Shown here: piece after piece, positions 4,830-49,505 of the stretch
Position numbering within the stretch: the stretch's first letter is position 1
How the letters are laid out: each line of letters begins with the position of its first letter
NCBI GenBank assembly: GCA_002711995.1
Contig: PASN01000004.1
Location: 9,674-73,673 of the forward strand
Reading direction: 5' to 3'
DNA: 64,000 nt
From: Halobacteriovoraceae bacterium
GTDB lineage: Bacteria > Bdellovibrionota > Bacteriovoracia > Bacteriovoracales > Bacteriovoracaceae
The notes under the pieces: model-generated
What the model was told of the DNA's origin: nothing
Seen by the model: only the letters and a program-made list of their open reading frames with translations
The model's database searches: none
Made by a program: the position numbers and the translations under genes

Positions 4830-4899
4830 TGGTGGAGGTGGTGGGAATCGAACCCACGTCCAAGAGTACGTCTGAGAGAGAGCACTACGTGTGTAGTCG
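4830..4899 (-). repeat. att-type copy of the tmRNA 3' end (copy 1)
   Basis: Seventy bases match the 3' end of the ssrA gene at 5528-5597 in 66 positions, including the encoded CCA, acceptor strand and T-arm. The four differences form two base pairs in the T-stem (T-A and G-C here, C-G and C-G in copy 2), so both copies still fold. The copy lacks the rest of tmRNA and is not itself a gene. It is best read as the attachment-site half left by integration into ssrA. Confidence 0.88.
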
Positions 4900-5181
4900 T
4901 TAGGAAGCTTCTTCTACACCTTTTTCGGATATCTTAATTAGCTTATTTGTATAGAGGTCATATATTGGAAAGGTCAGGTCAAAGTCTCCCCAATCCAGGT
5001 CTCCATCAATAACTTCAAAACTTTTAAAAAGTTCAAGGTTTAAATACTTTCTGATCTCTGAATGCTTGGAAGCGTTAAAAAATGGAAAGAAGTCCACAAT
5101 CTGTACTTTGCCGTCATTAAACTCCAATTCAAGCTTGTAGTCAGAAAGATACTTGGCACTTTTTATACTAATGTTATCCAT
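4900..5181 (-). CDS. DUF2442 family protein
   Basis: A 93-residue protein with the DUF2442 pattern: an N-terminal strand with ELEFNDGKVQIVDF, then KYLNLELFKSFEV, and a GDLDWGDFDLTFPIYDLY stretch where the family has its Trp-Asp-rich segment. DUF2442 genes are often paired with DUF4160 and are suspected, not proven, to form toxin-antitoxin-like pairs. The ATG overlaps the TAA of the DUF4160 gene by one base, indicating translational coupling. The stop codon starts at the first base after the 70-bp att repeat (4899/4900), so the repeat boundary coincides exactly with the gene end. Function is unknown. Confidence 0.8.
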   Translation of the reverse strand: MDNISIKSAKYLSDYKLELEFNDGKVQIVDFFPFFNASKHSEIRKYLNLELFKSFEVIDGDLDWGDFDLTFPIYDLYTNKLIKISEKGVEEAS

Positions 5182-5483
5182 TAAAGCTTCCCCTGAATTT
5201 TTTTAGCTACTATTTTTTTATGATACACAAAGTAATTAACCCATTGCTGGACGATCTCATCAGATAGTTTTCCCACCAGCTCTTCAAAGTCTTTTAATTG
5301 TTTAGATGGAAGGGCTCGCTTACCTTTCACAGAAGAAGTTTGAATATCTACTACTCTACCATCCTCTATAATAATCTCTATTTTAGATTCATGCCCTTGA
5401 TATCTAGCATGTACGTGAACAGGCTCATGCTCATTTGAGTAAAAGAATATGACAAGGCCTAAATATTCATAGAGCTTTGGCAT
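5181..5483 (-). CDS. DUF4160 family protein
   Basis: A 100-residue protein with the DUF4160 signature: the strand GLVIFFYSNEHEPVHVHARYQGHESKI (read in parts: NEHEPVHVHA is the hallmark) and a C-terminal helix LKDFEELVGKLSDEIVQQW. The family is usually encoded with DUF2442, as here, and is suspected to be one half of a toxin-antitoxin-like module. The gene starts 44 bp downstream of the mature tmRNA 3' end on the same strand. AAGGA lies 10 bp before the ATG. With no clear promoter in those 44 bp, readthrough from ssrA may express the pair. Confidence 0.8.
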   Translation of the reverse strand: MPKLYEYLGLVIFFYSNEHEPVHVHARYQGHESKIEIIIEDGRVVDIQTSSVKGKRALPSKQLKDFEELVGKLSDEIVQQWVNYFVYHKKIVAKKIQGKL

Positions 5484-5511: not shown

Positions 5512-5533
5512 CCACCAGAGTTTGATCTGGTGG
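5512..5533 (-). terminator. Hairpin that includes the tmRNA CCA end
   Basis: Eight-bp perfect arms (5512-5519 with 5526-5533) and a 6-nt loop. The upstream arm on the RNA covers the tmRNA 3' terminal CCACCA plus GA. It is followed by GCCCCC and AAAAATA rather than a U-tract, so it may be a 3'-processing structure more than a terminator. Confidence 0.45.
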
Positions 5534-5597
5534 AGGTGGCCGGAATCGAACCGGCGTCCAAGAGTACGTCTGAGAGAGAGCACTACGTGTGTAGTCG
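5528..5597 (-). repeat. att-type repeat inside ssrA (copy 2)
   Basis: This is the functional 3' end of ssrA and the partner of the 4830-4899 repeat. On the RNA the T-arm reads CCGG-TTCGATT-CCGG. Copy 1 differs only by compensatory changes in this stem. Confidence 0.88.
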
Positions 5598-5772
5598 CAT
5601 TAGAGCAAGCGACGGCTTTGAAAGTTTCGTGCCACTTACAAACCTCGGTGAAAGTTTCAACTGCGGTCCCGACTAGCAGCGAGGGCTTAGTTTTCCGACC
5701 TCCCCTCAAGAGGTCTTTACCTGCTTTTTGTTATCGGTGCAGGCCCCTCAGCAAGCGCAATAATTATTTAAA

Positions 5773-5805
5773 TTATGCAGCCATTGCGAATTCTTGTTCG
5801 TTGCC
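5773..5805 (-). other. tmRNA proteolysis-tag reading frame
   Basis: Resume codon GGC followed by AAC GAA CAA GAA TTC GCA ATG GCT GCA TAA gives GNEQEFAMAA. The hydrophobic Ala-Ala end matches the ClpXP degron type. The resume codon choice (Gly) is inferred from alignment with other tags; a preceding codon cannot be fully excluded. Confidence 0.8.
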
Positions 5806-5918
5806 GAATAAGATGTAATCGGATTTTTAACGAGGCCGTCCGATCAACCCCGACACGCGCTCAATTCGTCTGCAACCCCTGTCGAAACCAGTGCACCCCC
5901 CGAATTGTAAGCTTATCT

Positions 5919-5989: not shown

Positions 5990-6005
5990 TGGCAACTGGC
6001 CTGCA
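5990..6005 (+). promoter_or_regulatory. Sigma-54-like -24/-12 promoter
   Basis: TGGCAA-N5-CTGCA, with GG and GC 12 bp apart, resembles the RpoN consensus TGGCAC-N5-TTGCA. It lies 42 bp before the start of the peptidoglycan-binding lipoprotein gene at 6047. The same element precedes the two related genes at 6755 and 10684. Confidence 0.5.
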
Positions 6006-6046
6006 ACTAAAATTGCACGGAAATAGCTAAACCAAAGGAGAACAAT

Positions 6047-6544
6047 ATGAAAAAACGAAATCTATTAGCAGCAGCACTACTAATTACCTCTATTGGAGTA
6101 ACTTCATGCGCTAGCGATGAAGAAAAAAGAGAAAAAGAACAAAGAATGGAGGAAACAGTAGAGGCTGAGCAAGAAAGAATGGAGCAAGAGTCTGACGAGT
6201 TTGCAAGCGACATGGAAGATGAAGTAATGCAGGCAGAAGAAAATATTGAAGCTGAAGCTCAAGAAATGCAAGAAGACATGTCTGACAAGCCATGGGCAGA
6301 CCAAATGATTAGTCTAGATAAAGCAAAAGAAGTTCAAGAAGCTCTTAAAAACAACGGGTTTGAGATTGGAGCGGTTGATGGCCTTATTGGTCCAAACACC
6401 AAAGAAGGCCTTAGAAGCTTCCAAGAGCAGCAAGAAAATCTTACTGCTTCTGGAGAGCTAAACCAAGAAACTATTGATGCTCTTGGACTGGATTTTGATC
6501 TAGTACAAGCGCAACAGGAGCCAAAGTCTGAAATGTCTGAATAA
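6047..6544 (+). CDS. Peptidoglycan-binding-domain lipoprotein
   Basis: A 165-residue lipoprotein. The signal peptide ends in the lipobox VTSC (Cys at about residue 21). An acidic, Glu/Met/Gln-rich helical linker (about 22-85) is likely coiled-coil. A single PG_binding_1 domain follows (about 95-150: KAKEVQEALKNNGF, GAVDGLIGPNTKEGLRSFQ, SGELNQETIDALG). The domain binds peptidoglycan non-covalently and there is no catalytic domain, so the protein probably tethers the outer membrane to the wall. AAAGGAG precedes the ATG. It is the shortest of three related genes in the window (6047, 6755, 10684), all with sigma-54-like promoters. A strong terminator follows at 6574. Confidence 0.85.
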   Translation: MKKRNLLAAALLITSIGVTSCASDEEKREKEQRMEETVEAEQERMEQESDEFASDMEDEVMQAEENIEAEAQEMQEDMSDKPWADQMISLDKAKEVQEALKNNGFEIGAVDGLIGPNTKEGLRSFQEQQENLTASGELNQETIDALGLDFDLVQAQQEPKSEMSE

Positions 6545-6573
6545 GACGTTTTAGAAGTTTGCTTCTATAAAAG

Positions 6574-6601
6574 AGCGTCCCTTCGGGGGCGCTTTTTTTT
6601 T
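6574..6601 (+). terminator. Rho-independent terminator
   Basis: Eight-bp stem with one G-T pair (6574-6581 with 6586-6593), UUCG loop and a T8 run. A smaller hairpin (6552-6567) precedes it. Confidence 0.9.
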
Positions 6602-6688
6602 GCCCACCGCACTTAATTTCTTAAGATTCATTTATTTATTGAAGAGTTTAAAGATTAAGGCACTCCCCTTCTATAAGACGAAAATTCA

Positions 6689-6704
6689 TGGCAAGGCCTT
6701 TGCA
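6689..6704 (+). promoter_or_regulatory. Sigma-54-like -24/-12 promoter
   Basis: TGGCAA-N5-TTGCA, 51 bp before the ATG at 6755. Spacing between the GG and GC dinucleotides equals that of the elements at 5990 and 10624. Confidence 0.6.
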
Positions 6705-6754
6705 CAATTAACAAGTAACGAAAAACAATTAAGTAATCACCAGGAGGTTGAATT

Positions 6755-7681
6755 ATGAAACATAAAAAGACAGCTATAGCAGTCGCAGTGGCAGGACTTA
6801 TGGGACTCTCCCCATACGCAATCGCTGAAGGCTGGGGCGAAAAATCAAAACAGAAAATGCAAGAAGCTGGAGAGAGCGTTGAAAGAGGCGCTGAAAAAAC
6901 GACTGAAAAAGTTAAAGGCTTTTTTGGGTCTGATGAAAAACAAGAGCAAACTTCCATCTCTGCGGACAGTTTAAGTAAAGATCAAATCTCTCAAGTGCAA
7001 AAAGCGCTTAATGAGAAAGGCTTTCATTCTGCAAATGTAGACGGAGAAATGGGAGAAGAGACCAGCAAGGCCTTAAGAAACTTCCAAGAGAATCAAGAAA
7101 TCACAGCTTCTGGAGAGCTCAACCAAGAAACTCTAGACGCTCTAGGCGTGGACATTAACGTTAAGCAAGCTCAGGAAGAGTCAGAGTCAGCTCCAGTGGA
7201 AGAGCAACAAGACCATTCAGTGGAAAAACAAGAGCAAACTGACCACTCAGGTCATTCACACTCGCCAGAACAGCAAGAAGATTCTGGTTCTGCCATTCCA
7301 CAAGAGCAGCAAGAGGACTCCACAATGGTGCCACAGCAGCAACAGGAAGAGTCTAGTTCTGTTCAAGAGCCTCAACAACAAGAGGAATCAAGCTCGATGC
7401 TACCACAGGAGCAGCAAGATTCCGCTTCGGTAGGATCCTCTCCTCTTTCTTCAGACCAAGTTACTGAGTTGCAAAAGAGTCTAAACGAAAAAGGCTATGA
7501 TGCAGGAAACGTTGACGGCATCATTGGGCCTGAAACCAGAGGAGCGATTGAGAGCTTTCAACAAGAGAAAGGGATCACAGCTTCCGGAGAGCTAAATCAA
7601 GAAACTATCGACGCCTTAGGAATAGACGTTGATTTAAAGCAAGCTCAGGAAGAGTCAGGATCTCAAATGTTCTCAGAATAA
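6755..7681 (+). CDS. Secreted protein with two peptidoglycan-binding domains
   Basis: A 308-residue exported protein. The signal peptide is cleaved after AIA (about residue 24). A short amphipathic helix with SVERGAEKTTEKVKGFFG follows. PG_binding_1 domains lie near 68-130 and 232-295, each with VDG(E/I)(M/I)G...(S/R)..LRNFQ/IESFQ and the ending ASGELNQETLDALG. The 100-residue linker between them is made of Gln/Glu/Ser runs (QQEQQEDS-like). It probably spans and binds the cell wall; no hydrolase domain is present. AGGAGG precedes the ATG. A sigma-54-like promoter lies at 6689 and a hairpin follows the stop. The two domains resemble the single domain of the 6047 gene closely, suggesting recent duplication. 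Confidence 0.85.
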   Translation: MKHKKTAIAVAVAGLMGLSPYAIAEGWGEKSKQKMQEAGESVERGAEKTTEKVKGFFGSDEKQEQTSISADSLSKDQISQVQKALNEKGFHSANVDGEMGEETSKALRNFQENQEITASGELNQETLDALGVDINVKQAQEESESAPVEEQQDHSVEKQEQTDHSGHSHSPEQQEDSGSAIPQEQQEDSTMVPQQQQEESSSVQEPQQQEESSSMLPQEQQDSASVGSSPLSSDQVTELQKSLNEKGYDAGNVDGIIGPETRGAIESFQQEKGITASGELNQETIDALGIDVDLKQAQEESGSQMFSE

Positions 7682-7692
7682 TTTGACACACC

Positions 7693-7718
7693 TAGGCCGC
7701 CACTTGCGTGGCGGTCTA
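7693..7718 (+). terminator. Hairpin terminator
   Basis: Eleven-bp stem with one G-T pair (7693-7703 with 7708-7718) and a TTGC loop. The T tail is short (TTTGAG). It ends the 6755 transcript. Confidence 0.65.
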
Positions 7719-7730
7719 TTTGAGACGCTT

Positions 7731-7838
7731 ATGGATGATACAAAGAAATACCCAGAATATAAACACAACATGCCACTTAGAGCGACAGGACTTGCGGCGG
7801 CGCTGATTGCAATTATCTTATTCTTGCTCGCTCTGTGA
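7731..7838 (+). CDS. 35-residue single-pass membrane protein
   Basis: ATG 7731 opens a 35-codon frame with a charged N-terminus (MDDTKKYPEYKHN), then MPLRATG and a hydrophobic helix of about 16 residues up to the stop. No convincing ribosome-binding site is seen and it begins just past the terminator of the upstream gene. It overlaps the end of the lycopene cyclase gene (opposite strand) by 26 bp. The tail-anchored layout looks protein-like, but expression is uncertain. Confidence 0.4.
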   Translation: MDDTKKYPEYKHNMPLRATGLAAALIAIILFLLAL

Positions 7839-8547
7839 ACAATCCCTTTCTTCTATTCACATACCAGAAAAGCTCAAGTCCCTGACAAAATGCTAGATTG
7901 AGACATAGATAAAAAAGAGATCTCTCTATGGGAAGGCCAAAGATAGTAATGCCACTGGAAAGAGAGGCATTAACAATCCAGTATCCTTTGTGAATAGCAA
8001 AAGCGTCTATTAAAGAGAAGTATATGGTGGAGATTAAAGTCGCCAGTATAAACCTGCTTTTTGTTCTCCACACAAGACTTCCTCCAAACAACCACATGGC
8101 ACCCATGACAAAGCTAAACCATAAAAGGATGACCCCCATATGAGCAAATGTGGGCTCTCTCAACATAATGATGCAAGTGATGGCCAAAGGTGCAAAGAAA
8201 GCGATGCCACCAAGTTTGATCCATCTGGAAGGAAATCTTACCGGATGAATTCTTGGTCGAAGGAAGTAAAGGATTAGTCCGGAAAAAAGACACATTCCAG
8301 CAATAAGTCCATATATCTCAATAGGAAGAGATCCCACCATGTAGAGAGATTCAAAACGATTAAAGACAAGGATATCCTGCTGGGCGAGAATCTGATTAAG
8401 CGGTGAGCTAATGATGAGAGTTAGAATGCCAGTGACGATTACACCAGAGAGAACTGTTCTTATAGGATCGTTTCTTTTAAAGAGCAATAAAAGCTCAAGC
8501 ACAACCCAGGGTGCCACAAAGGCGGTTATTAGCTCTATATAGCTCAC
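7813..8547 (-). CDS. crtY: Lycopene cyclase, CrtYcd-type membrane protein
   Basis: A 244-residue integral membrane protein with about seven hydrophobic spans. It looks like the fused two-part lycopene cyclase (CrtYc-CrtYd/CarR type, also the N-half of fungal bifunctional enzymes). Each half carries the family's PIE motif: LPIEIYG near residue 75 and LPIERSLFY near 206. It closes the ends of lycopene into beta or epsilon rings in the cytoplasmic membrane. The GTG start overlaps the TGA of the phytoene-synthase-like gene (GTGA), so the two are translationally coupled. With the upstream GGPP synthase it forms a carotenoid operon. No phytoene desaturase is in the window, so part of the pathway must lie elsewhere. 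Confidence 0.75.
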   Translation of the reverse strand: MSYIELITAFVAPWVVLELLLLFKRNDPIRTVLSGVIVTGILTLIISSPLNQILAQQDILVFNRFESLYMVGSLPIEIYGLIAGMCLFSGLILYFLRPRIHPVRFPSRWIKLGGIAFFAPLAITCIIMLREPTFAHMGVILLWFSFVMGAMWLFGGSLVWRTKSRFILATLISTIYFSLIDAFAIHKGYWIVNASLSSGITIFGLPIERSLFYLCLNLAFCQGLELFWYVNRRKGLFTERARIR

Positions 8548-9395
8548 TCGACGAAGGCCTCTTTTAAATGAAGGCTAGGCCTCATAAATTCAATAAGGGA
8601 TTTAAGGGTAACCTTGGTCTTCTCCATTGAAGTAAGTCTTATATGGGAATCTAGCACTTCGTAGTTTTTGCGCTCAATCTTTCTAGCAAGCTCTCTGTAT
8701 TGGTTCATTGTAACAAGAACGCCAATTCTTGCTCTTGGTTGAAGAAACCTAAGTCCTTCATAGGCGTGGGCGTAGTATGTGTCGGCCAAGGCCAAGTACT
8801 TTTTTACAATTCTTTTTAGTCCGTTTGGAGTCTGGCCTGGTTTAAGATCTTTAACTCCGTTTCTCACAAGCTCATCCTCAGGGAAAAGCACTCTCCCCTC
8901 ATTCAAGTCTTTTAAGGCCCTAGAGCAAATGGTGGTAAGATTGATGCTTAGTCCCAAATCCATCGCACAGGCCAGAGCTCTTGGGTCTTTAGCTCCCAAT
9001 GAGGTCGCAAGCATCATGATGAAGGCGGCATTGTTTTTATAACAATAGACCATGAGTTGATTGTGATTTAGAGGTCTTTTCTTTTGAATTTCATATTTTG
9101 AGGCCTCAATAATCTCTTTGGCGCAAGAGGTGCCCATTTCAAGTCGCTTGAGAGTTTCCAAAAAGCGAACCATAAAAGTGTTGCTTGGATTTTCAAGCTC
9201 CGCCTCCAGGGTCTTTAAATCTTTTAGAGCTTGTTTTTTGTCTTTTTGTGAGGCGAGCTTTTTCGTGTAGCTGTAGAAGGCATAAACCATGTTAAGGTCT
9301 TGATCATCGTGCTCTTTTAAAAATTGAACGGTTCTGTGAAATACAGCTCCATAATTTTTTTTGATCTCAATCGGATCTGGCTCCAAATAATTCAT
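8544..9395 (-). CDS. Phytoene/squalene-synthase-like protein lacking Asp motifs
   Basis: A 283-residue all-helical protein aligned by eye to phytoene synthases: VYAFYSYTKK at the first motif position, the LGLSINLTTIC helix, GRVLFPEDEL, and the C-terminal RARIGVLVTMNQYRELARKIE. The catalytic Asp-rich motifs are missing: canonical YAFCRxxDDxxD reads YAFYSYTKKLASQ, and the second motif DxxxD reads RALKDLNE. The enzyme normally joins two GGPP to phytoene using these Asp. Position between GGPP synthase and lycopene cyclase argues for a carotenoid role, perhaps as a divergent enzyme or a non-catalytic partner. The start at 9395 (after GAGGGA) is preferred over 9479, which would overlap the upstream gene. 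Confidence 0.65.
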   Translation of the reverse strand: MNYLEPDPIEIKKNYGAVFHRTVQFLKEHDDQDLNMVYAFYSYTKKLASQKDKKQALKDLKTLEAELENPSNTFMVRFLETLKRLEMGTSCAKEIIEASKYEIQKKRPLNHNQLMVYCYKNNAAFIMMLATSLGAKDPRALACAMDLGLSINLTTICSRALKDLNEGRVLFPEDELVRNGVKDLKPGQTPNGLKRIVKKYLALADTYYAHAYEGLRFLQPRARIGVLVTMNQYRELARKIERKNYEVLDSHIRLTSMEKTKVTLKSLIEFMRPSLHLKEAFVE

Positions 9396-9438
9396 AACAG
9401 AATCCCTCACTCTCAAAGTTTGTGATTTATAAATTTGC

Positions 9439-10473
9439 TCAAAAACTATGGCCAATAATTTGCTTAGACAGACCTTCATTAATATTAAAAATGGTTTCGT
9501 TAATTCCCCTAAGAGGTTTCATAAGTTCTTCAATAAATATCTGGATCACTCCCTCCACTTCTGGGTTGGTTTGCAAGTATTCATGCTTTAACAAGGCATA
9601 GGATCTATCTGTGAGCTCGCTCAATGCGCGGGCAAGAGTGCCATCTCTTATAAACTGCTCTTTGATGATCAGGACTTCTCCCCGTAAAATATTTTCACGG
9701 TTTCTAAAGAGAAGTTTTTTGATGGCCTCAAAGTTATTTTGATTGTTTTCCAAATGCTTCACAATCAAAAAAGAAACCTTTCCCTCTTTGATGTCATTTC
9801 CCTGCATGTCTCTTTGCTTGTCCCCGTAAAGATCTATAATGTCATCCTGCATTTGCATGAGAAGGCCTAGCTTGTAGAACACATCCTCTAGCTCCACACA
9901 CTCCTCTTCAGCTTTATTGGCAATGATCCCCACTCCTCTGGCAAGGTGTGAGTAAAGAGAGGCGGTCTTCATTCCAGCGCACTCGAGATAGCGATTAGAG
10001 ATTCCCTTGCAGGATTCAAGCTCGCTAAGTTTAAATTCTCTACACTGCCCATCCATAACTTCAGAGGCAAGCTTGTTAAACAAGCTCATAAGCATGTGCT
10101 TTTTTTCTAGATCTAGCTCTGAGTCCAATATGCACTCTGTTGCGTTGATCATGAGAAAGTCCCCTGCGTTTATGGCCATGTTTGAAGAATATCTCTTCCA
10201 CAAACTTGGACGTGACCTTCTTAGAATATCTCCGTCTTGGATGTCATCATGAATAAGGGTTCCATTGTGAAACATCTCAAGTCCTGCCGCCCAGCCAACA
10301 GTGGACAATGCGTCAGTACTCAGCGCTTGCGCCAATAAACCTATGGCCTTCGGCCGGTTAAGTTTTCCCCACGTTTCAAAGTGGTAATCAATCATTTCTT
10401 TTAATTCGCCATGGGCGTTTTTTTCAACTACAGCATTAATTAGACGCTTGGTCTCTTCTAGGTACAACTCCAT
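9439..10473 (-). CDS. crtE: Polyprenyl (geranylgeranyl) diphosphate synthase
   Basis: A 344-residue trans-prenyltransferase. The first Asp-rich motif is DDIQD at residues 76-80 (LIHDDIQDGDILRRSRPS) and the second is DDIID at 210-214. Both bind Mg-diphosphate. It builds C15/C20 prenyl diphosphates from IPP and an allylic starter. Context (phytoene-synthase-like and cyclase genes 43 bp downstream) favours GGPP for carotenoids. An octaprenyl quinone-chain synthase is the alternative. GGAGAG lies just before the ATG. The gene diverges from the peptidoglycan-binding gene at 10684 across a 210-bp gap. Confidence 0.85.
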   Translation of the reverse strand: MELYLEETKRLINAVVEKNAHGELKEMIDYHFETWGKLNRPKAIGLLAQALSTDALSTVGWAAGLEMFHNGTLIHDDIQDGDILRRSRPSLWKRYSSNMAINAGDFLMINATECILDSELDLEKKHMLMSLFNKLASEVMDGQCREFKLSELESCKGISNRYLECAGMKTASLYSHLARGVGIIANKAEEECVELEDVFYKLGLLMQMQDDIIDLYGDKQRDMQGNDIKEGKVSFLIVKHLENNQNNFEAIKKLLFRNRENILRGEVLIIKEQFIRDGTLARALSELTDRSYALLKHEYLQTNPEVEGVIQIFIEELMKPLRGINETIFNINEGLSKQIIGHSF

Positions 10474-10623
10474 TATCTCTCCGCTTTAAATTTGATCAGA
10501 GTTTGCCAACAGGCCTTGATTTAAGCAACGTGAGCAATCTGCGCAAGAATTAAACCAAGGCCTGATGCTGTCTAACTCAAGTTTTTATTGGATGAAATCG
10601 CTAAGATGCCCTTCATTATTAAC

Positions 10624-10639
10624 TGGCACAACCGTTGCA
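10624..10639 (+). promoter_or_regulatory. Sigma-54-like -24/-12 promoter
   Basis: TGGCAC-N5-TTGCA is the best match of three in the window to the RpoN consensus. It lies 45 bp before ATG 10684. Confidence 0.65.
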
Positions 10640-10683
10640 ACCATCTTGCTTAGATATACGATGGAAAAACAGAGGATTTTGCC

Positions 10684-11349
10684 ATGACTTCGCTTATAAA
10701 TTTGATCATCACACTAGGTTTATTCAGCACTCCTATTGCGCTTGGCAACGGACCGAGTGTGGGACTTGATGAAAAACTCAATAAGGTCCAGCCCCCTCAG
10801 CAACAGGTTGAAGAGGAAGAACCAACATACATTCCACCAAACACTGTGTTTGAAGTGGCAAAAGTTCCAGACCGCACCACCGTTTTAAAGCTTCAGCAAA
10901 AGCTTGAAGGCATGGGCATCTATAAGGGACCTCTAGACGGAAAATGGACAACAAGAACACAAAGAGCTTTAAGAAAATATCAAATGAGAGAAGGGATAAC
11001 CGCGACTGGAAAGCTGAGTGAAGAAACTCTGGCCGCACTGAACATGAAAGTTCAGGATGAGGAAAACCAAATTCAAGCGCAGCAAGATTCAGGGAGCGAT
11101 TCACAAAACCTAACTGATACCTCTTCGCAAACCGAGAATTTTGACGCTTACAACAAGGAGCTCGTCAAAAAGGTTCAATCCAAGCTTAGTCAACTTGGGT
11201 GGGAGCTTAAGGAAGACGGGATTCTAGGACAAAGGACACAAGGTGTTCTTAAAGAGTTTCAAGAAAAGTCAGCTTTAAAAGTCACTGGCAGCATTAATTC
11301 AGAAACGCTGAAGGCCTTAAATATTGAGGAACAAGAGTTTGCTGAATAA
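10684..11349 (+). CDS. Secreted protein with two peptidoglycan-binding domains
   Basis: A 221-residue exported protein. The signal peptide ends near residue 20-22 (TPIALG). A Pro/Gln/Glu linker follows, then PG_binding_1 domains at about 65-120 (LQQKLEGMGIYKGPLDGKW, QRALRKYQ) and 158-215 (VQSKLSQLGWELKEDGILG, VLKEFQ, INSETLKALN). It resembles the proteins at 6047 and 6755 but is more diverged. No hydrolase domain is present. Likely role: cell-wall binding in the periplasm. A sigma-54-like promoter lies upstream and a strong terminator lies downstream, so it is monocistronic. Confidence 0.85.
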   Translation: MTSLINLIITLGLFSTPIALGNGPSVGLDEKLNKVQPPQQQVEEEEPTYIPPNTVFEVAKVPDRTTVLKLQQKLEGMGIYKGPLDGKWTTRTQRALRKYQMREGITATGKLSEETLAALNMKVQDEENQIQAQQDSGSDSQNLTDTSSQTENFDAYNKELVKKVQSKLSQLGWELKEDGILGQRTQGVLKEFQEKSALKVTGSINSETLKALNIEEQEFAE

Positions 11350-11371
11350 TTATTGGCAGGGGTGAACCAAG

Positions 11372-11404
11372 GAGAGGCCGATTCGTCGGCCTCTCTCTTT
11401 TCTT
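11372..11404. terminator. Rho-independent terminator, shared by convergent genes
   Basis: Ten-bp perfect stem (11372-11381 with 11386-11395), TTCG loop, then TCTTTTCTT. It lies between the ends of the plus gene at 11349 and the minus gene at 11403. Confidence 0.85.
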
Positions 11405-23056: not shown

Positions 23057-24259
23057 CTAGAAGAATACTTCTCCAATGATCTTGTTTACATTTTCAGGAG
23101 TTGTCTTGTTATGCTTAGCGATGTCGTTAAGCATAGTTTTAAGATCGTCGCTTTCACCTTTAAGAGACTTGGAAACCGCAACTTCCACATCTTTAAGGTT
23201 TTTACCGATAACCTCTACAGCAAACACGTTGGCGTCTTTCTCAGTCAACTCTCTAGTTCCAGCTAGTTTGTTGAACTGGTGAGCAACAACCGCGATGTCT
23301 TTAGCTCTGTCAGCGCTTAAAGCGAATCTAGCTTTAAGTTGTTGAGACATTTGATTTAGGTAGTGCTGCTCTTTAAAAGAAGCAAGCTTTTCCATATCAA
23401 CTGTTCCATTGTCAGCGTGGTTCATTGCCATGCTGGCCGCAGTCTTAGAGTCAAACTTCTGAAGCTTTGAGTAGTCAATCAAATCGCCGTTAACCATTGC
23501 CGCAAGCTTAACACTTGGGTTTGTGGTTTTAACGCTTGATCCGATCGCAGCATCGTAACCATCATCCCAACCAGCGTCATAGCCATCGTTGTAACCATCA
23601 GTTTCGCCAATTCCGTAACCGTAGTCATAGCCGTCTTGGTAAGCATAGTAGCTGCCATCGTCATAACCGTCGTTGTAACCTTCAGTTGCGCCGTCAGCAT
23701 ATCCGTCTTCTTTGCCTTCGTAGTAGCCTGATGACTCACCATCGGCAAATCCATCGTCATAGCCGTCGTAGTAAGAGATAGCTGAAGCGTCGTCATATCC
23801 ATCGTTATAGCCATCACTTGCGCCTGCAACTCTTCCGTTGTCATGGCCATCATCATAGCCATCCATGTAACCTTCGTTTACATGATCGTCGTATCCAGCA
23901 GTGTAGTTTGGATCGTAGCTTTCTTCGTATCCGTCAGCGTAGCCTTGATCATCACCTCTTGCATAACCTTGCGACCAACCGTCATTGAAGCCAGCTCCGT
24001 AGTTGTCATTTGAAGTGTAGTAAGCTTTACCTTCAGCGTAACCCTCGCCATGGCCTTGAGTTCTGCCTTCAGCGTAGCTAGTGTCATAAGCGCCTTGGTA
24101 AGTTGAAGTGTATCCAGCGTCGTAACCTTCAGAATAGCCTTGGCTCTCGCCATCGGCCGCGCCTTTGGTTTTACCGGCATTGAAACCTTCTTGATACTTG
24201 TCTTTACAACCAGTAACCAAGAAAGCAGATGCCATAAACAATACAATATAATTTTTCAT
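23057..24259 (-). CDS. GYD-repeat lipoprotein B
   Basis: A 400-residue lipoprotein with lipobox VTGC (Cys at residue 18). Residues about 25-240 consist almost wholly of repeated G-x3-G units rich in Tyr, Asp and Gly (GYxDGYDDG type). The C-terminal 150 residues are an ordinary helical domain with DLIDYSKLQKFDSK, NHADNGTVDMEKL, LKEQHYLNQMSQQL-like and RAKDIAVVAHQFNKLAG. The G-x3-G spacing recalls the deca-GX3 motif of the Yae1 N-terminus, but that relation is not claimed. The acidic tyrosine-rich repeat could bind Ca2+ or form a stalk. It lies 14 bp after its paralogue and ends at a bidirectional terminator. Function is unknown. Confidence 0.75.
   Translation of the reverse strand: MKNYIVLFMASAFLVTGCKDKYQEGFNAGKTKGAADGESQGYSEGYDAGYTSTYQGAYDTSYAEGRTQGHGEGYAEGKAYYTSNDNYGAGFNDGWSQGYARGDDQGYADGYEESYDPNYTAGYDDHVNEGYMDGYDDGHDNGRVAGASDGYNDGYDDASAISYYDGYDDGFADGESSGYYEGKEDGYADGATEGYNDGYDDGSYYAYQDGYDYGYGIGETDGYNDGYDAGWDDGYDAAIGSSVKTTNPSVKLAAMVNGDLIDYSKLQKFDSKTAASMAMNHADNGTVDMEKLASFKEQHYLNQMSQQLKARFALSADRAKDIAVVAHQFNKLAGTRELTEKDANVFAVEVIGKNLKDVEVAVSKSLKGESDDLKTMLNDIAKHNKTTPENVNKIIGEVFF
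23540..24187 (-). repeat. Gly-Tyr-Asp coding repeat, copy B
   Basis: Degenerate 12-bp (four-codon) repeats encode G-x3-G units. Copies vary in sequence, so the array is selected at protein level and is not a DNA-level tandem repeat. Confidence 0.7.
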
Positions 24260-24273
24260 GGTTCGTTCCTTTC

Positions 24274-25485
24274 TTAGTAGAAGATCTCAGTTAGTATTTT
24301 GTTAAATTGCTCTGGGCTTGTTTCCATGTTCTGGGAAGCTTTTTCAACCAAAGACTTAAGCTCGCTTGACTCGCCTTTAGCGGACTTTCTTACAGCGCTT
24401 TCAATTTGCGCCATATCGAATCCGATAAGGTCTTTTGAGAAAGACGATGCGTCTTCTGTAGTCAATGCTCTTGAGCCTGCCAATTTATTGAATTGGTGAG
24501 CAGTAAGGGCCACTTTTTGAGCACTTTTCTTAGAAAGGCCAAATCTTGCCTGGATCTGCTGTCCCATAGCATTTAAATAATGTTGTTCTTTAAGAGCTCC
24601 AAGTTTTTCAAGGTCAACTGTTCCACCATCAGCATGGTTGAAAACAATTGTCCCAGACTCAAGAACAGACTTAGAGTCAAACTTAGGAAGCGCGCTGTAA
24701 TCAATTAGGTCAGCGTTAACTTTGCTTGCAAGAGCAACTGCAGGGTTTTTAGACTTGATAGATGATCCGTAATACCCATAATCATATCCGTCATCGTAAC
24801 CATCGTCATAACCAGTGTCATAACCATAGTCGTAACCATCGTCATAACCATCAGCCTCGCCTTGAGCGAAACCATAAACTTCACCGTCGCTATAACCATA
24901 GCTGTAGTTGTCGTTGTAGCCTTCGCTGTGCCCGTGGTCATAACCACTGTCATAGCCATGAGCATGGCCATCAGCGTGTCCGTCATCGTAGCCTCTGTTG
25001 TAGCCGTCAGCAGCTCCGTCAGCGGCGCCAATGCCGTAGTTGTTTGCATATCCGTAATCGTAGCCATCAGCGTTGCCGTCAATGTAGCCTGTGTCATAAC
25101 CGTAGTTGTAACCGTCTACAGAGCCGTCATTGTAGCCATCAGTAGCGCCTGCGCTGCTACCAGATGCATGGCCGTCAGAGTAGCCTTGAGCGAAACCTTG
25201 GGAGTCCCCGTCGGCAAAACCCTGTTGGTAATCTTCAGAAGCAAAGTCTACATACGCTTGCTCGTAACCTTCACCATGTCCTACAACTCTACCGTCTGCA
25301 AAACCATCAGCACTTCCGTCAGCTGTACCTTGAGCTTGCCCATCGGACTCCCCCTCGGAATAAGCGGACGAATACGTGGAATTAAATCCTTGCGTATACC
25401 CGGCGTCAAAGCCTTCGTCGTACTTGGAATTGCATCCAGCCCCTAAAAAGGCGGTGGCCGCCAATACTGCTAGATACTTGTTCAT
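24274..25485 (-). CDS. GYD-repeat lipoprotein A
   Basis: A 403-residue paralogue of the downstream gene, with lipobox GAGC (Cys at residue 18). It has the same Cys-x-x-KY-x-EGF start, a Gly-Tyr-Asp repeat region (about 22-245) and a C-terminal domain that aligns throughout (DLIDYSALPKFDSK, FNHADGGTVDLEKLGALKEQHYLN, VALTAHQFNKLAGSRALT). Residues 215-243 are almost pure GYDxG units. Strong ribosome-binding site AGGAG before the ATG. It is the first gene of a two-gene operon that arose by tandem duplication. Surface location is inferred from the lipobox. Confidence 0.75.
   Translation of the reverse strand: MNKYLAVLAATAFLGAGCNSKYDEGFDAGYTQGFNSTYSSAYSEGESDGQAQGTADGSADGFADGRVVGHGEGYEQAYVDFASEDYQQGFADGDSQGFAQGYSDGHASGSSAGATDGYNDGSVDGYNYGYDTGYIDGNADGYDYGYANNYGIGAADGAADGYNRGYDDGHADGHAHGYDSGYDHGHSEGYNDNYSYGYSDGEVYGFAQGEADGYDDGYDYGYDTGYDDGYDDGYDYGYYGSSIKSKNPAVALASKVNADLIDYSALPKFDSKSVLESGTIVFNHADGGTVDLEKLGALKEQHYLNAMGQQIQARFGLSKKSAQKVALTAHQFNKLAGSRALTTEDASSFSKDLIGFDMAQIESAVRKSAKGESSELKSLVEKASQNMETSPEQFNKILTEIFY
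24750..25419 (-). repeat. Gly-Tyr-Asp coding repeat, copy A
   Basis: Same four-codon G-x3-G periodicity as at 23540. The regularity opens long frames on the other strands (for example a Val/Ser/Ile-rich one at 24862-25446 plus), which are composition artefacts. Confidence 0.7.
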
Positions 25486-43121: not shown

Positions 43122-44504
43122 GTGGCACGTTTTTTACTAATGCTTTGTGTTTTACTTATTGCTGGCTGTGGTGGCAGTGCCGGAGGCAAGCTTAACCTAA
43201 ATGGAAATAGCAGCAATGACTCACAGTCCTTGCCCTCAAATAATTTTTCAATAATAGAAAACTACAATCAAGAACTGATCTTAAAATATCCAAACTCTTT
43301 TACAGGAACAACCTGTGAAGTTACAGATGAAGTGGGTGTAACAATAGCAAATGCATGCACCTGCAGCGTTGGAACCTGTCAAGTTGAGTTTAACCCTGCA
43401 ACAGCTGGGAGTGCAAGTTTCAACTACACCATCAGTGACAATGGGGCCAATAACTACGAAGCAAAAGGAAATCTTACAGTCAAACCAGTAGTGCCTTTTC
43501 AGTCTGTTTGGCGGGTTGGAAATGTATCATATGGTGATGGAGACTTAACTGTAACACTTCCCTTGTTAAGTGGACGAGAGTATGACTTCACAGTTGATTG
43601 GGGTGATGGCAACACGGATACTATCACCGCCCATGATGATGTGGATAAAAATCATACCTATGCTTCTGCGGGAGACTACACCATCTCTATCTCAGGTTTA
43701 GTTGAAGCATGGAGTTCTGGATTCTCTGGCGACTATGATAAAATCATAGCGGTTACAGAGCTGGGAACAGTTGGTTGGAGGGAGTTTTGGGGAGCATTTT
43801 TAGGATGCACTAACCTAACAACCTTTGAGGGCGGCGATTTATCTAATGTCACAACGATAAGTGCTATGTTTAAAGGCTCACCAAACGTCACCCCTAACAC
43901 TTCAGGATGGAATACACAAAATATAAAGAATATGGGTGAAGCATTTCAAAACGCCACCTCTGCAAATCCGGATACATCGAATTGGGATACTTCAAGTCTG
44001 ACTAACCTACAGAATACGTTTGATGGTGCCACCTCTGCCAACCCGGACGTAAGTAATTGGGATACTTCAAGGGTTAAAACAATCTATAGTACCTTTGCCA
44101 ATTCAACTATAAACCCTGATGTGAGTAACTGGGATACATCAAATGTGACAGTTATGAGTACAGCATTCTATCAAAACACTGCTGCAAACCCAGACGTTAG
44201 CAATTGGGACACCTCTAAAACCCTTGGATTTGACGCAATGTTCGAAGGAGCCACTTCAGCAAATCCAGACATGTCTGGCTGGGACTTCTCGAGCATACTT
44301 ACGTTTACCCAATCAGTGAACAACATGTTCTTTGGAAATACATCTCTATCAACAGAAAATTATAATAATCTTCTTATTGGTCTAGATGCCACAGGCATAA
44401 GCAACCTAAATCTGCATGGCGGCTCTGCAACTTGTAGTGGTGCGGGCTGCACAGCTAAGGCAAATCTTCAGGCTCGATCCTGGACTATCACCGACGGTGT
44501 TTAA
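43122..44504 (+). CDS. DUF285-repeat (BspA-like) lipoprotein 1
   Basis: A 460-residue lipoprotein. The GTG start follows AGGAG. Lipobox IAGC (Cys at about 16). Residues about 45-125 form a Cys-bearing beta domain (TCEVTDEVG, CTCSVGTCQVEF, FNYTISDNG). A PKD-like domain follows (VDWGDGNTDTI, HTYASAGDYTISISG). Then come about six or seven 25-residue DUF285 units (xTSNVTxMxxxFxxAxxANPDVSNW) and a C-terminal module with ATCSGAGCTAK and WTITDGV. These surface repeats form extended beta/leucine-rich-like stalks for adhesion in other bacteria. It is one of three paralogues (44777 and 47841) and the shortest. Confidence 0.85.
   Translation: MARFLLMLCVLLIAGCGGSAGGKLNLNGNSSNDSQSLPSNNFSIIENYNQELILKYPNSFTGTTCEVTDEVGVTIANACTCSVGTCQVEFNPATAGSASFNYTISDNGANNYEAKGNLTVKPVVPFQSVWRVGNVSYGDGDLTVTLPLLSGREYDFTVDWGDGNTDTITAHDDVDKNHTYASAGDYTISISGLVEAWSSGFSGDYDKIIAVTELGTVGWREFWGAFLGCTNLTTFEGGDLSNVTTISAMFKGSPNVTPNTSGWNTQNIKNMGEAFQNATSANPDTSNWDTSSLTNLQNTFDGATSANPDVSNWDTSRVKTIYSTFANSTINPDVSNWDTSNVTVMSTAFYQNTAANPDVSNWDTSKTLGFDAMFEGATSANPDMSGWDFSSILTFTQSVNNMFFGNTSLSTENYNNLLIGLDATGISNLNLHGGSATCSGAGCTAKANLQARSWTITDGV
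43840..44290 (+). repeat. 75-bp coding repeats, DUF285 array 1
   Basis: About six 25-codon units, one shortened to 24 codons. Divergent at DNA level but regular in protein (period set by the Trp of SNW). Confidence 0.8.
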
Positions 44505-44776
44505 GAAAGCACTCAGTTTATTTAATGGGCCTGCATCAATAGTGTGTTTATCTTTATTGGAATAGGATTTCACTTAAAGGGCCACCCCCTCCAAATTTGA
44601 AACTCTAATAAGAAAACCATCATATTTGAGGTGCTGCCATACATTTTGGGCTACCAAGTAGATTCTGGGAACTTTATGCCTTTAGTGGCTTAAGTTAAAA
44701 TCCAATATTTATAGCCACTTAGCACAATTTTAAAATTAACTTTTGTTAATAGTCTGTATTGTTCAATAATAAAAGT

Positions 44777-46519
44777 ATGAAGACTTTCTTAAAAATTGCA
44801 GGCCTATTAATTTCTGCTTTTATTTTTTCAAGTTGTTTGGATGAGGTAAAAGAAGCAGCTCAAGCTTTAGAGGACAACTTCCCTCCACCGGAAGAGAGCT
44901 CGCCCACAGAGTCAAACCAAGACGAAACACCTGAACAAGCTCCAGGCCCAACTAAGTTTACTGCCTCTCTTATTGCAGGATATGAACAGACTCTACGACT
45001 AAAGTATGACAATCAGTTTGTTGGAACTTCTTGCTCTATAGTAGACCCAGTTGGCCTTACCATCAATCAAGCATGCTCGTGTCTGAATGGAGTTTGCTCA
45101 GCTGAAGTGGCAACACCTTCCACTAGTGGATATGGAAGTTTTTCTTACACTGTAACAGATGGAGTAGAACAGTATCAAAGAGAGGCCGAATTAAATATTA
45201 AAGACATAAATGCAGTCAAGATGACTTTTAGAATCGGAAACGTTTCTTATGGTGACGGAGACCTGACTCTTACACTCCCGCTCGTTCAAGATTATCGCTA
45301 CGACTTCACAATTGACTGGGGAGATGGCAACTCTTCTGTAGTGACTTCCTATAACGATCCGGATATTGAACACACTTACGCCTCTGCGGGTGATTACTCT
45401 ATAACAATATTAGGCCAGGTTGAGGCATGGAGCTTTGATGCCAAGGGAGACAAAGACAAACTATTATCAGTTGAGGAACTGGGCACTGTTGGATGGGTGA
45501 ACCTAGACAGTGCATTTGATGGTTGCTCCAACTTAACAACAGTGTTTGGTGGAGACACTTCTAATGTGGTGAATATGGCCAGAATGTTCTACGACGCCGT
45601 ACAGGCAAGGCCAGACACATCAACTTGGAACACTGGCAATGTAACTAGAATTTCTTCAATGTTTAATGGTGCAACTGTTGCGACCCCAGATACAAGCAAC
45701 TGGGACACCTCTAATATGAAAAGTATTAGCTGGGCATTCAGAGATGCGATTGCGGCCAACCCAAATACATCGAACTGGGATACTTCTAATGTAACAGACA
45801 TGTCGGGAGTATTTTATAATGCCGAATCTGCCACTCCTGACACAAGTGGATGGCACACCTCAAAAGTAACTAATATGGGATACATGTTTCACGGCGCAAA
45901 AATCGCCAACCCTGACACAAGCAATTGGGATACTTCCAAAGTGACCGACATGATAAACATGTTTACCAATGCGGATTTTGCCAATCCAGACACCTCTAAA
46001 TGGGATGTTTCAAGTGTTACTAGAATGTCCAATTTGTTTTATGGCACTGATTCTGCAAATCCAGATGTCTCAAGCTGGAACACATTAAACGTTAAAAGGT
46101 TTAACGGGATGTTCTGGGGCTCAAAGGTTGCAGACCCCGATGTAAGGAACTGGGATCTAAGCAGCGCAAAGGTAATAAATCAGATGTTTAAAAACTCAAA
46201 AGCAAATCCAGACGTTTCTCAATGGGACACTTCAAGTGTGGAAAATATGTTTGAACTTTTTAGAGGGGCTTCCAGGGCAGACCCAGACATGTCCAATTGG
46301 GACTTTTCAAGTGTCACAAGTGTTAAGGACATGTTTTATGGTGTTACCATTTCAACTTACAATTACGACACTTACCTTATACGCCTTGACGCCACAGCGG
46401 CAAATGGACTTACAACGACAGGTGGTGGCTCAACTTACACTTCAGCTGGAGCCGGCGGCACAGCGAGAGCAAACCTAGTGAGCAAAGGATGGACGATTAC
46501 CGATGGCGGTGGGATATAG
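44777..46519 (+). CDS. DUF285-repeat (BspA-like) lipoprotein 2
   Basis: A 580-residue paralogue with lipobox SSC (Cys at about 20) and a Pro/Glu/Ser linker. The N-terminal beta domain (SCSIVDPVG, CSCLNGVCSAEV), PKD-like domain (IDWGDGNSSVV, HTYASAGDYSITILG) and ten full DUF285 units plus a final half follow. The C-terminal module keeps ARANLVSKGWTITDG, but the two Cys found in copies 1 and 3 are missing (TYTSAGAGGTA). ATG 44777 is chosen so the signal peptide is N-terminal; the frame opens at 44759. A 272-bp gap without recognisable genes separates it from copy 1. Confidence 0.85.
   Translation: MKTFLKIAGLLISAFIFSSCLDEVKEAAQALEDNFPPPEESSPTESNQDETPEQAPGPTKFTASLIAGYEQTLRLKYDNQFVGTSCSIVDPVGLTINQACSCLNGVCSAEVATPSTSGYGSFSYTVTDGVEQYQREAELNIKDINAVKMTFRIGNVSYGDGDLTLTLPLVQDYRYDFTIDWGDGNSSVVTSYNDPDIEHTYASAGDYSITILGQVEAWSFDAKGDKDKLLSVEELGTVGWVNLDSAFDGCSNLTTVFGGDTSNVVNMARMFYDAVQARPDTSTWNTGNVTRISSMFNGATVATPDTSNWDTSNMKSISWAFRDAIAANPNTSNWDTSNVTDMSGVFYNAESATPDTSGWHTSKVTNMGYMFHGAKIANPDTSNWDTSKVTDMINMFTNADFANPDTSKWDVSSVTRMSNLFYGTDSANPDVSSWNTLNVKRFNGMFWGSKVADPDVRNWDLSSAKVINQMFKNSKANPDVSQWDTSSVENMFELFRGASRADPDMSNWDFSSVTSVKDMFYGVTISTYNYDTYLIRLDATAANGLTTTGGGSTYTSAGAGGTARANLVSKGWTITDGGGI
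45555..46340 (+). repeat. 75-bp coding repeats, DUF285 array 2
   Basis: Ten 25-codon units plus a partial one, ending in the conserved DFSSVTSVKDMFYGVT segment shared with array 3. Confidence 0.8.
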
Positions 46520-46856
46520 AAGGTAAGACCTTGTTAATATTAGTGATTAAGATTTTGAAAGCATAGGATATTGAATCAGTCTTTTCAGTCTGCTAATCTT
46601 AAATAGCATAACCAGGTGGTGGAGTGCTGGTAACACCCCACCTAAATCATCGTTTGATTAAATCTAGAATTGAATTAAGAATATCCAAAACTAGTTTAAT
46701 CAAAGTCAAAACCCTGATTATGTCTTCCATAACAAAAACCTTTGTTAGAGGCTCCCCTTCATTGGGGAGTTATGGAAAGCTGCACGCTTTTTACAGCAGT
46801 GCAGTTCAATATTCAGTAGTATTCAAACTAATGGGATGAAGTTTTTCAAATATGAA
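46520..46856. other. Noncoding gap after DUF285 lipoprotein 2
   Basis: No gene is supported here. It holds a hairpin with 6-bp arms around 46757-46774 (CTCCCC/GGGGAG) and a GGTGG...CCACC pairing at 46613-46643. Short frames on the plus strand have no family signal. Confidence 0.5.
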
Positions 46857-47630
46857 TTAGAGCTTGATGGCCTTGGTGGCAATGAAGCAGTCAATATAAT
46901 TATTAAGAAGCCCGTTTTCTTCCGTCCAAGAGTCCTCATAGAAACCAGTGATAGCAAAGCCTGCTCTAGTTTGACCGCCTATTTGGTCTTGAAGAGAATG
47001 TCCAAACGCCAACGGCTCACCTTTGTCAGTATATCTTTTTCTTTCTTCTTCAGTAAGGCTTGTAAGATCAGAGTACGGAACCTTGTATTTAACTTGAAGA
47101 ACGCCTTCATCTTCTTTCTCAGGATCCATGATGAATGAAATAGGATTGCAAAATCCAGATAAAAGAGCGCCGCCTTTTTTTAATACACGGTACGCTTCTT
47201 TCCACACAGGATCAACATCAGGAACAAAGCAATTTGAACAGGGGTGAAAGATCAAATCAAAAGACTCATCTTCAAAGCAAGAGAGATCTTTCATGTCACC
47301 TTGAACAAGTTCCATGTTAAGACCTTCTTTTTCGGCGACCAATCGATCTTGCCCGAGTTGTCCCGGTGAATTGTCAAAGATTGTAACTTCAGCGCCTGCT
47401 GCGGCAAATATTGGACCTTGTTGTCCACCCGCAGAGGCAAGGCCTAAAACCTTTTTACCTTTCAAATCGGGAAACCATTCTTTTGGCACAGGCTTTAGAG
47501 GTGTAAGCACAACTTCCCAGTCACCCTCTTTCGCCTTTTTAATTTGTTCACTTGTTACAGGGATAGTCCACTCGCCTTCTTCAGACACCTGACGATCCCA
47601 TGCCTCTCTATTGTATTTAAGTAAGTCCAT
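46857..47630 (-). CDS. Class I SAM-dependent methyltransferase
   Basis: A 257-residue methyltransferase. Motif I is [12 protein letters not shown] (about 61-72), the ribose-binding acidic residue is in VTIFDNS, and motif IV is [12 protein letters not shown]. The text resembles the Methyltransf_11/UbiE group acting on small molecules. No substrate clue. It interrupts the DUF285 lipoprotein series on the opposite strand. Confidence 0.85.
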
Positions 47631-47840
47631 TTCAAAATGTTAATCAATTATAGCTAGATAGAGAAGTGGAAACTCAGCCAAAAAAAATTGTCACCACACT
47701 TAAAATTAAAATTAGCTAACCCTTTCAACACGATAAGGAGCTTCTAATAAATAATTGAAATCATAAACCTTTAGTTTTGTTTTAGTTCACCTTTACGCCA
47801 AGAATGTCGAAACCATTCCACAAGGAATTAAAGTGAAATT

Positions 47841-49505
47841 ATGAAAAGATTGATTGTTTTAACATTCTCAGTGTTTCTAGGTGTGTCTTGTGGAAAGGTC
47901 GACTTCGATCTCCTCAACGAGAAGCTTAACGAGCTCTCTGCTGATGAAGTGGTAACGCTCATAGAAGATCACGAACAAACAATTACCTTAAACTATGAGC
48001 AAAGCTTCACGGCCACATCATGCACCATAACCTCTCTTACTGGGGCGGCGGTTACAACACCATGTTCTTGTTCTGCTGGAGTGTGCACTGTGGGTATAAC
48101 TCCAAATGGACTTGGTGATATTTCTTTATTGTACTCAGTAAGCGATGGTGGGACCAACTCAGATTCTAGCGATGTCCAAGCAACTGTAAAAGAAGTTGTC
48201 CCTTTCAAATCAACTTGGCGAGTTGGTGACCCTTCCTATGGTGATGGCGATCGCACAGTAACTCTACCACTTAGAAGCGGCTTTAATTATAACTTCACTG
48301 TGGACTGGGGTGATGGGAATGTTGGTGAAGTGACTTCTCACGATGACCCAGACATAGACCATCTATATGATGACCCGGGCGACTATCAGATAACAATCAC
48401 TGGCCTTGTGGAGGCCTGGAACTTTGCCAACACTGGTGACAAAGACAAAATCTTGTCTATTGAAGAGCTAGGAACTGTTGGTTGGAGGTCCTTTTATGAT
48501 GCCTTCTGGGGTTGCAATAACTTAACGGTAGTCTCAGGTGGAGACACCTCTAATGTTGTGGAAATGGATTGGATGTTTGATAGAGCTCCTTTAGCTAATC
48601 CAGACACGAGCGACTGGAATACCTCCAACGTCAGGAGCATGGCAGGTGTATTTTTTGGGGCAAGCACGGCCAACCCCGATGTGAGCAAATGGGATGTATC
48701 CAATGTGAGAAATATGATGTCATTATTTTTTGATGCCCCGAACGCGAACCCAGATGTGAGCAACTGGGACACCTCAAATGTGGAGAACATGAAGTGGATG
48801 TTTGTTAGGGCCTATGCCGCAAATCCTGACGTAAGCAAATGGGACACCTCTAGCGTTACCAATATGGCAGAAATGTTTTACGATGCGGATGCCGCAGATC
48901 CTGATGTTAGCAATTGGGACACTTCAAACGTTACTGATATGAACGGAATGTTTGAATATACAGCTATTGCCAATCCTGATGTCAGCAATTGGGACATGTC
49001 TAATGTTACAAATATTAGTGGGATGTTTTTTCAAACAAGTGCGGCAAATCCTGATGTTAGCAATTGGGATGTTTCAAGTGTCACGAATATGGATAGTGTG
49101 TTTTCAAATACTGCCGTGGCAGATCCTGATGTTAGCAACTGGAATACTGTAAGTGTAACCAACATGAGGGCCGTATTCTACAGCGCTGACGCGGCCAACC
49201 CTGATGTAAGCATGTGGAACACTTCAAATGTCACAACTATGGAATCGATGTTCTATTTCGCGGACTTTGCCAATCCAGACATGTCGAATTGGGATTTTTC
49301 ATCAGTGACAAATGTTAATGGAATGTTTGAGGGCGTCACAACCCTATCCACAACAAATTACAACAACCTCTTAATAAGAATGGAGGCCACTGCTCCTGAC
49401 AGCCTTAACTTCCATGGAGGTAGTGCGACTTGTAGTGGGGCCGGGTGTACAGCAAGAAACAACCTGGACACTGTGAAAAATTGGAATATCACGGACGGGG
49501 TCTAA
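47841..49505 (+). CDS. DUF285-repeat (BspA-like) lipoprotein 3
   Basis: A 554-residue paralogue of the genes at 43122 and 44777. Lipobox VSC (Cys at about 17). The beta domain (SCTITSLTG, CSCSAGVCTVGI), PKD-like domain (VDWGDGNVGEV, HLYDDPGDYQITITG), ten full DUF285 units plus a final half, and the Cys-containing tail (ATCSGAGCTARNNL) follow. Units are closer to each other than in copies 1 and 2, mostly ANPDVSNW. That suggests more recent internal expansion. lgt, which lipidates such proteins, starts 93 bp downstream. Confidence 0.85.
   Translation: MKRLIVLTFSVFLGVSCGKVDFDLLNEKLNELSADEVVTLIEDHEQTITLNYEQSFTATSCTITSLTGAAVTTPCSCSAGVCTVGITPNGLGDISLLYSVSDGGTNSDSSDVQATVKEVVPFKSTWRVGDPSYGDGDRTVTLPLRSGFNYNFTVDWGDGNVGEVTSHDDPDIDHLYDDPGDYQITITGLVEAWNFANTGDKDKILSIEELGTVGWRSFYDAFWGCNNLTVVSGGDTSNVVEMDWMFDRAPLANPDTSDWNTSNVRSMAGVFFGASTANPDVSKWDVSNVRNMMSLFFDAPNANPDVSNWDTSNVENMKWMFVRAYAANPDVSKWDTSSVTNMAEMFYDADAADPDVSNWDTSNVTDMNGMFEYTAIANPDVSNWDMSNVTNISGMFFQTSAANPDVSNWDVSSVTNMDSVFSNTAVADPDVSNWNTVSVTNMRAVFYSADAANPDVSMWNTSNVTTMESMFYFADFANPDMSNWDFSSVTNVNGMFEGVTTLSTTNYNNLLIRMEATAPDSLNFHGGSATCSGAGCTARNNLDTVKNWNITDGV
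48543..49330 (+). repeat. 75-bp coding repeats, DUF285 array 3
   Basis: Ten 25-codon units plus a partial one. Several share long DNA words (for example AATCCTGATGT then AGCAATTGGGA), so recombination between units is likely. Confidence 0.8.

Follow-up and report, generated by a model that had tools for sequence, protein, structure and literature searches.

Putative sigma-54 promoters before three peptidoglycan-binding genes in a member of the Bacteriovoracia

Are the three genes for peptidoglycan-binding (PG) proteins in this stretch of DNA transcribed from sigma-54 promoters, and do they belong to a common envelope response? The window analyzed here, 64 kb in length, comprises bases 9674-73673 of contig C1 in a genome of 3.70 Mb and 23 contigs. 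A sequence-only reading had proposed that each of the three genes follows an identically spaced -24/-12 element, and an exact search for TGGCA(A/C)-N5-(C/T)TGCA bears this out: the pattern occurs on the plus strand at 5990..6005 (TGGCAACTGGCCTGCA), 6689..6704 (TGGCAAGGCCTTTGCA), and 10624..10639 (TGGCACAACCGTTGCA), ending 41, 50, and 44 bases before the ATG of the genes at 6047, 6755, and 10684, respectively. The gap between GG and GC is 10 bases in 3/3 elements, and all three also keep this distance within the pattern TGGCAY(R)N4-5(T/C)TGCW. The elements at 5990 and 6689 carry CAA instead of CAC/CAT; the former also departs at the -12 box, with a C, and ranks below several coding-region matches with a window-only positional weight matrix, whose frequencies were approximate and on which no weight is placed. 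In the 64-kb window the exact motif was observed 4 times, as opposed to 0.14 expected from shuffles. The fourth copy (46042..46057, plus strand) sits inside a BspA-like repeat gene and was rejected as a part of the system, being read as a chance match.

The gene at 6047..6544 (plus strand) encodes a predicted lipoprotein of 165 aa with the lipobox VTSC, a charged linker, and one PG_binding_1 domain (PF01471, 45.1 bits). The second, at 6755..7681 (plus), encodes an exported protein of 308 aa with two such domains and a Q/E-rich linker between them (106.2 bits, 2 stretches), and the third, at 10684..11349 (plus), a probably exported protein of 221 aa, again with two domains (94.9 bits, 2 stretches). 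All three lie above the curated Pfam cut-off for PF01471 of 23 bits, and a profile search of the genome placed all 5 PF01471 domains found in these same reading frames. A genome scan of PG_binding_1 genes for the motif, suggested earlier as a check, found the exact element before the three genes that hold all 5 domains. The products combine peptidoglycan-binding domains on flexible linkers and show no recognized catalytic domain; a structural role in binding the wall is most likely. Judging by domain anatomy, the lipoprotein could anchor the outer membrane to the wall, and the two proteins with two domains each could bridge wall strands. The gene at 10684 is divergent from a polyprenyl synthetase gene (9439-10473), which lies in a minus-strand cluster between the PG genes (7813-10473) together with lycopene-cyclase-like and phytoene/squalene synthase genes. 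The polyprenyl synthetase has no close match in genus mates (best 26%), an absence that is uncertain because both assemblies are only ~81-82% complete. An intrinsic-terminator-like hairpin (11371..11396, plus; 11 pairs, 7 of them G-C, with a T-rich tail) follows the third PG gene; overall, the scan for terminator hairpins gave no excess over shuffles.

The genome encodes one full-length sigma-54 factor with activator-interacting (AID), core-binding, and DNA-binding domains. It shares 97% identity with the protein of the MAG 'Bacteriovoracaceae bacterium isolate GY13CL_bin.22' and ~54-79% with those in many Bacteriovoracaceae/Halobacteriovorax records, which places the organism, an uncultured relative of predatory bacteria, in the Bacteriovoracia (Bdellovibrionota). 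Among 14 PF00158 matches in the genome, ~11 are sigma-54 activator genes, and seven activators carry a GxFTG(A/C) loop (GAFTGA-type); the three weakest matches resemble Clp-type or MoxR-type AAA+ proteins and were rejected as activators. Thus the assignment of the elements as sigma-54-like promoters, made at first sight of the sequence, is backed by their sequence, spacing specificity, and position, by the complete rpoN gene and ~11 activator genes, and by conservation of the promoter class in genus mates, and we regard it as well supported. It is very probable, in our view, that the three elements are ordinary -24/-12 sigma-54 promoters and that the wall-binding proteins are made together with exported and stress-type proteins.

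From these observations we infer how the promoters would be used in the cell. Sigma-54 RNA polymerase would bind the GG and GC blocks and form a closed complex at the three PG promoters, which an ATP-driven enhancer-binding protein, answering a signal, would remodel so that the promoter opens. Transcription would begin ~12 bases downstream of the GC; counted from the GC at -12, the predicted start points fall at ~6016, ~6715, and ~10650, with leaders of ~31, ~40, and ~34 nt, respectively. Ribosome-binding sites are plausible at all three genes with leaders of 31-40 nt, and the DNA downstream of the GC is A/T-rich in 27 aligned promoters of this type, matching the expectation for the melting region. 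The exported PG-binding proteins would then attach to the wall, being co-produced with other exported and stress-type proteins upon a switch of the cell state or an envelope challenge.

That one enhancer-binding activator co-regulates the three genes, as the sequence-only reading had it, did not find confirmation, with neither a shared upstream site nor an activator gene nearby. Dyad counts, EM with shuffled controls, shared words, and inverted repeats gave no usable motif in 26-27 upstream regions; the EM motifs changed from run to run and looked like terminators or A/T runs, and an isolated inverted repeat, GCCTTGATTTAA..TTAAACCAAGGC, is confined to the 10624 element, ~100 bp upstream of it. 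There is no PF00158 match within the window, and the nearest ones on contig C1 are ~98 kb and ~124 kb from the PG genes. It is a real possibility, although not the one we favor, that the elements are sigma-54 promoters answering to a different activator each, among the ~11 available. The lack of a shared upstream site and the heterogeneity of the wider gene set, which includes a flagellar-type gene, speak for such separate control, whereas the paralogous products at neighboring loci favor a common signal, and the power of the activator-site searches was low, given three sequences and distant enhancers.

Another explanation concerns the origin of the elements: the genes might share them only through duplication of a paralogue together with its upstream DNA, so that one inherited promoter would carry no selective meaning for co-regulation. 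The PG proteins are indeed paralogous, the domains of 6047 and 6755 being 54-55% identical to each other and 24-37% identical to those of 10684. However, the copies do not resemble each other in the 80 bp upstream and 36 bp downstream of the elements; with 22-39% ungapped identity, the promoter flanks are unrelated, and thus simple copying of a stretch does not account for the shared core. A core that was kept, or has arisen, while its surroundings were lost implies constraint. We consider this explanation somewhat unlikely, and it is in any case compatible with sigma-54 function.

The interpretation of the elements as sigma-54 promoters also had to be weighed against chance. The genome-wide work consisted of pattern searches and of stretches around the matches, with genes called by a home-made codon-model caller trained on the window and start sites taken also from simple scripts. 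The correctly spaced (N5) pattern has 11 copies in the genome, and seven other spacings have 80 in total (mean 11.4). In contrast, a same-strand start codon follows at a distance of 46-81 bp in 7/11 copies with the correct spacing, as compared to 3/80 mis-spaced ones (Fisher p = 4e-6), so that the preference for gene starts is seen only with the spacing that sigma-54 needs. It had been stated in advance that a motif equally frequent genome-wide would refute the proposal; the raw counts do equal those of the mis-spaced controls, so that this refutation holds in a crude sense, but the relevant measure is position before starts, and it separates the correct spacing from the others. Assuming ~3,500 genes, random placement would hit all three PG genes with a probability of ~5e-9 for 7 target genes or 6e-7 for 31. 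Sigma-70-like sites show no excess in the region, and none among the sites listed lies directly before the three genes. Hence chance intergenic matches, with the PG genes transcribed from sigma-70 promoters, are very improbable: the unremarkable raw frequency and the copies inside genes would fit them, whereas the strong dependence of position on spacing, the presence of the element at all three genes of one rare family, and the sigma-70 scan do not.

The three genes are not alone behind such elements, contrary to the initial impression that no other gene has one. Four more exact copies precede gene starts by 46-81 bp (L006, L007, L008, and L010), and a looser pattern, TGGCRHN5YTGCW, occurs at 65 places genome-wide: 31 of these precede starts (27 at no more than 90 bp), another 26 fall in genes, and 8 are intergenic. 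Behind the 31 sites are, along with the three PG proteins, a fasciclin lipoprotein, a DUF7844/Lnb_N protein, DJ-1/PfpI, tandem CBS, a DksA/TraR zinc-finger protein, an FlgF/G-type rod protein, a histone H1-like Lys/Ala-rich protein, and several small exported proteins or lipoproteins. A signal sequence was predicted by a crude home-made script in 15/30 regulon products versus 83/364 other genes (p = 0.0017). The three PG genes probably belong to a larger putative regulon of surface and stress genes, most of whose members are of other kinds. The proposed envelope response is plausible from this gene list and from the signal sequences, and we consider an envelope/stress sigma-54 regulon moderately supported.

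Conservation could be assessed for other members of this set. No orthologues of the PG genes were found in 39 genomes and 10 further entries (partly the same genomes; ~40 relatives), the protein at 6755 had no match in a scan of named genomes, and no relative searched had such an orthologue with the motif. The PG promoters thus cannot be footprinted and rest on sequence, spacing, and position. The promoter class itself is conserved in the genus. The fasciclin orthologue in the genus mate G001 is 80% identical to the protein of the source genome (G000), and the core of its element, TGGCAAACCTATTGCACTAG, is the same base for base in both genomes, while the upstream flank has diverged; this element is of the CAA type, as at 6047 and 6755. 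The element is also kept before orthologues in G001 or G002 at further loci (L155/L313, L154/L315 and L322, L148-L149/L316, L138/L318, and L166/L203). A stringent pattern, TGGCACN5TTGCW, is present in 25/25 genomes searched; backward controls are far fewer, and since reading the pattern backward creates CG-containing words, it was rejected as a fair control and spacing variants were used instead. In 29 examined loci of relatives, 20 of the 30 stringent matches precede genes and two are in genes. In a phylum-level relative (L212), TGGCAC-N5-TTGCT stands 66 bp before the gene of a CsbD-like stress protein, which fits a stress flavor of the regulon beyond the family. A CCAA-N9-TTGG dyad just upstream of the fasciclin -24 element is kept in G000:C7:130965 (L006) and G001:C141 (L219), and the element at 5990 is preceded by a similar CCAA-N5-TTGG. 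The fasciclin lipoproteins (L006, L219) contain Q/E-rich repeats.

One perfect -24/-12 element, at G000:C13:352576 (L170:1501-1618, plus strand), is intergenic and has counterparts in L317 (minus strand) and L319. In three species of the genus, the ~90 bases that come after it hardly vary and close with a Rho-independent terminator, in whose stem paired changes preserve the base pairing (GCCCGCG/CGCGGGC versus GCCTGCG/CGCAGGC). Folding of the candidate RNA is much better than that of shuffled sequences (z = -4.0); Rfam gave no family at gathering score, all low-threshold matches lying below it. The conserved element is thus a candidate for driving a sigma-54-dependent small RNA. The RNA contains CUUCUCCUU, complementary to a ribosome-binding site.

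A still broader hypothesis is that the Bacteriovoracia have a sigma-54 program of envelope remodeling and stress protection, including the small RNA, that takes the role played in other bacteria by RpoS-type general stress control and is possibly tied to a life-cycle switch; its members would be the wall-binding, fasciclin, histone H1-like, DJ-1/PfpI, CBS, DksA/TraR-type, and small exported proteins. We consider this broader reading unlikely.

Some aspects of the predicted regulon have parallels in known systems. In the E. coli Psp and ZraSR envelope-stress systems, sigma-54 promoters precede envelope proteins and are driven by enhancer-binding proteins. The likeness to the PG genes is one of arrangement, and the linked dedicated activator gene of Psp/Zra-type operons is missing at the PG genes. 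In comparative genomics by Francke et al. (2011), sigma-54 was tied to genes for exopolysaccharide, flagella, LPS, lipoprotein, and peptidoglycan precursors and was put forward as a factor with central control over the cell exterior in bacteria (PMC3162934). The exterior theme is common to the present gene set; the difference is that the published targets are transport and biosynthesis routes, whereas those described here are proteins with non-catalytic wall-binding domains, and that the text of that paper does not mention Bdellovibrio or name the present lineage. The earlier remark that sigma-54 control is unusual for cell-wall-binding proteins was overstated, because exterior control is already established for this factor (PMC3162934) and the PG genes are a minority of the putative regulon. 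The sigma-54 regulon of Chlamydia trachomatis includes many exported, membrane, and lipoprotein genes and a histone-like gene, and is linked to envelope remodeling at a developmental switch (PMC7482065). Similarly, -24/-12 elements in the genome studied here precede a histone H1-like gene and the genes of many exported products; however, the chlamydial regulon was defined experimentally (PMC7482065), whereas the present one is predicted from sequence. Sigma-54 is also encoded in the same phylum by Bdellovibrio bacteriovorus, where one passage lists the RpoN-like Bd0843 only as a predicted sigma factor and gives no regulon (PMC11209729).

Our literature search found no paper on Bacteriovorax and sigma-54 and no published sigma-54 envelope or stress regulon for the Bacteriovoracia. 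The present prediction therefore offers a testable sigma-54 regulon for a bacterial group without a published one found in that search, with a small, lineage-restricted family of wall-binding proteins wired into it. The mechanism itself is standard; if confirmed, the regulon would give a handle on envelope management in these relatives of predatory bacteria.

Several other features of the window can be mentioned. The tmRNA gene (5528-5900, minus strand) contains a 42-bp stretch (5556-5597) that recurs exactly at 4858-4899. The repeats flank a pair of small genes (4900-5181 and 5181-5483) weakly similar to DhiA/DhiT antitoxin/toxin models, and a tyrosine recombinase gene (1829-2992) lies to the left of the pair; the arrangement looks like an integration into the tmRNA gene. 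At 43122-49505 there are three lipoprotein-like genes in tandem, paralogous to one another and carrying BspA-like repeats (NPDTSNWDTSNVTDM); a methyltransferase-like gene on the opposite strand interrupts the series. On the minus strand at 23057-25485, two tandem paralogues each have a lipoprotein-like signal followed by long G/Y/D-rich repeats (DGYNDGYDDG...).
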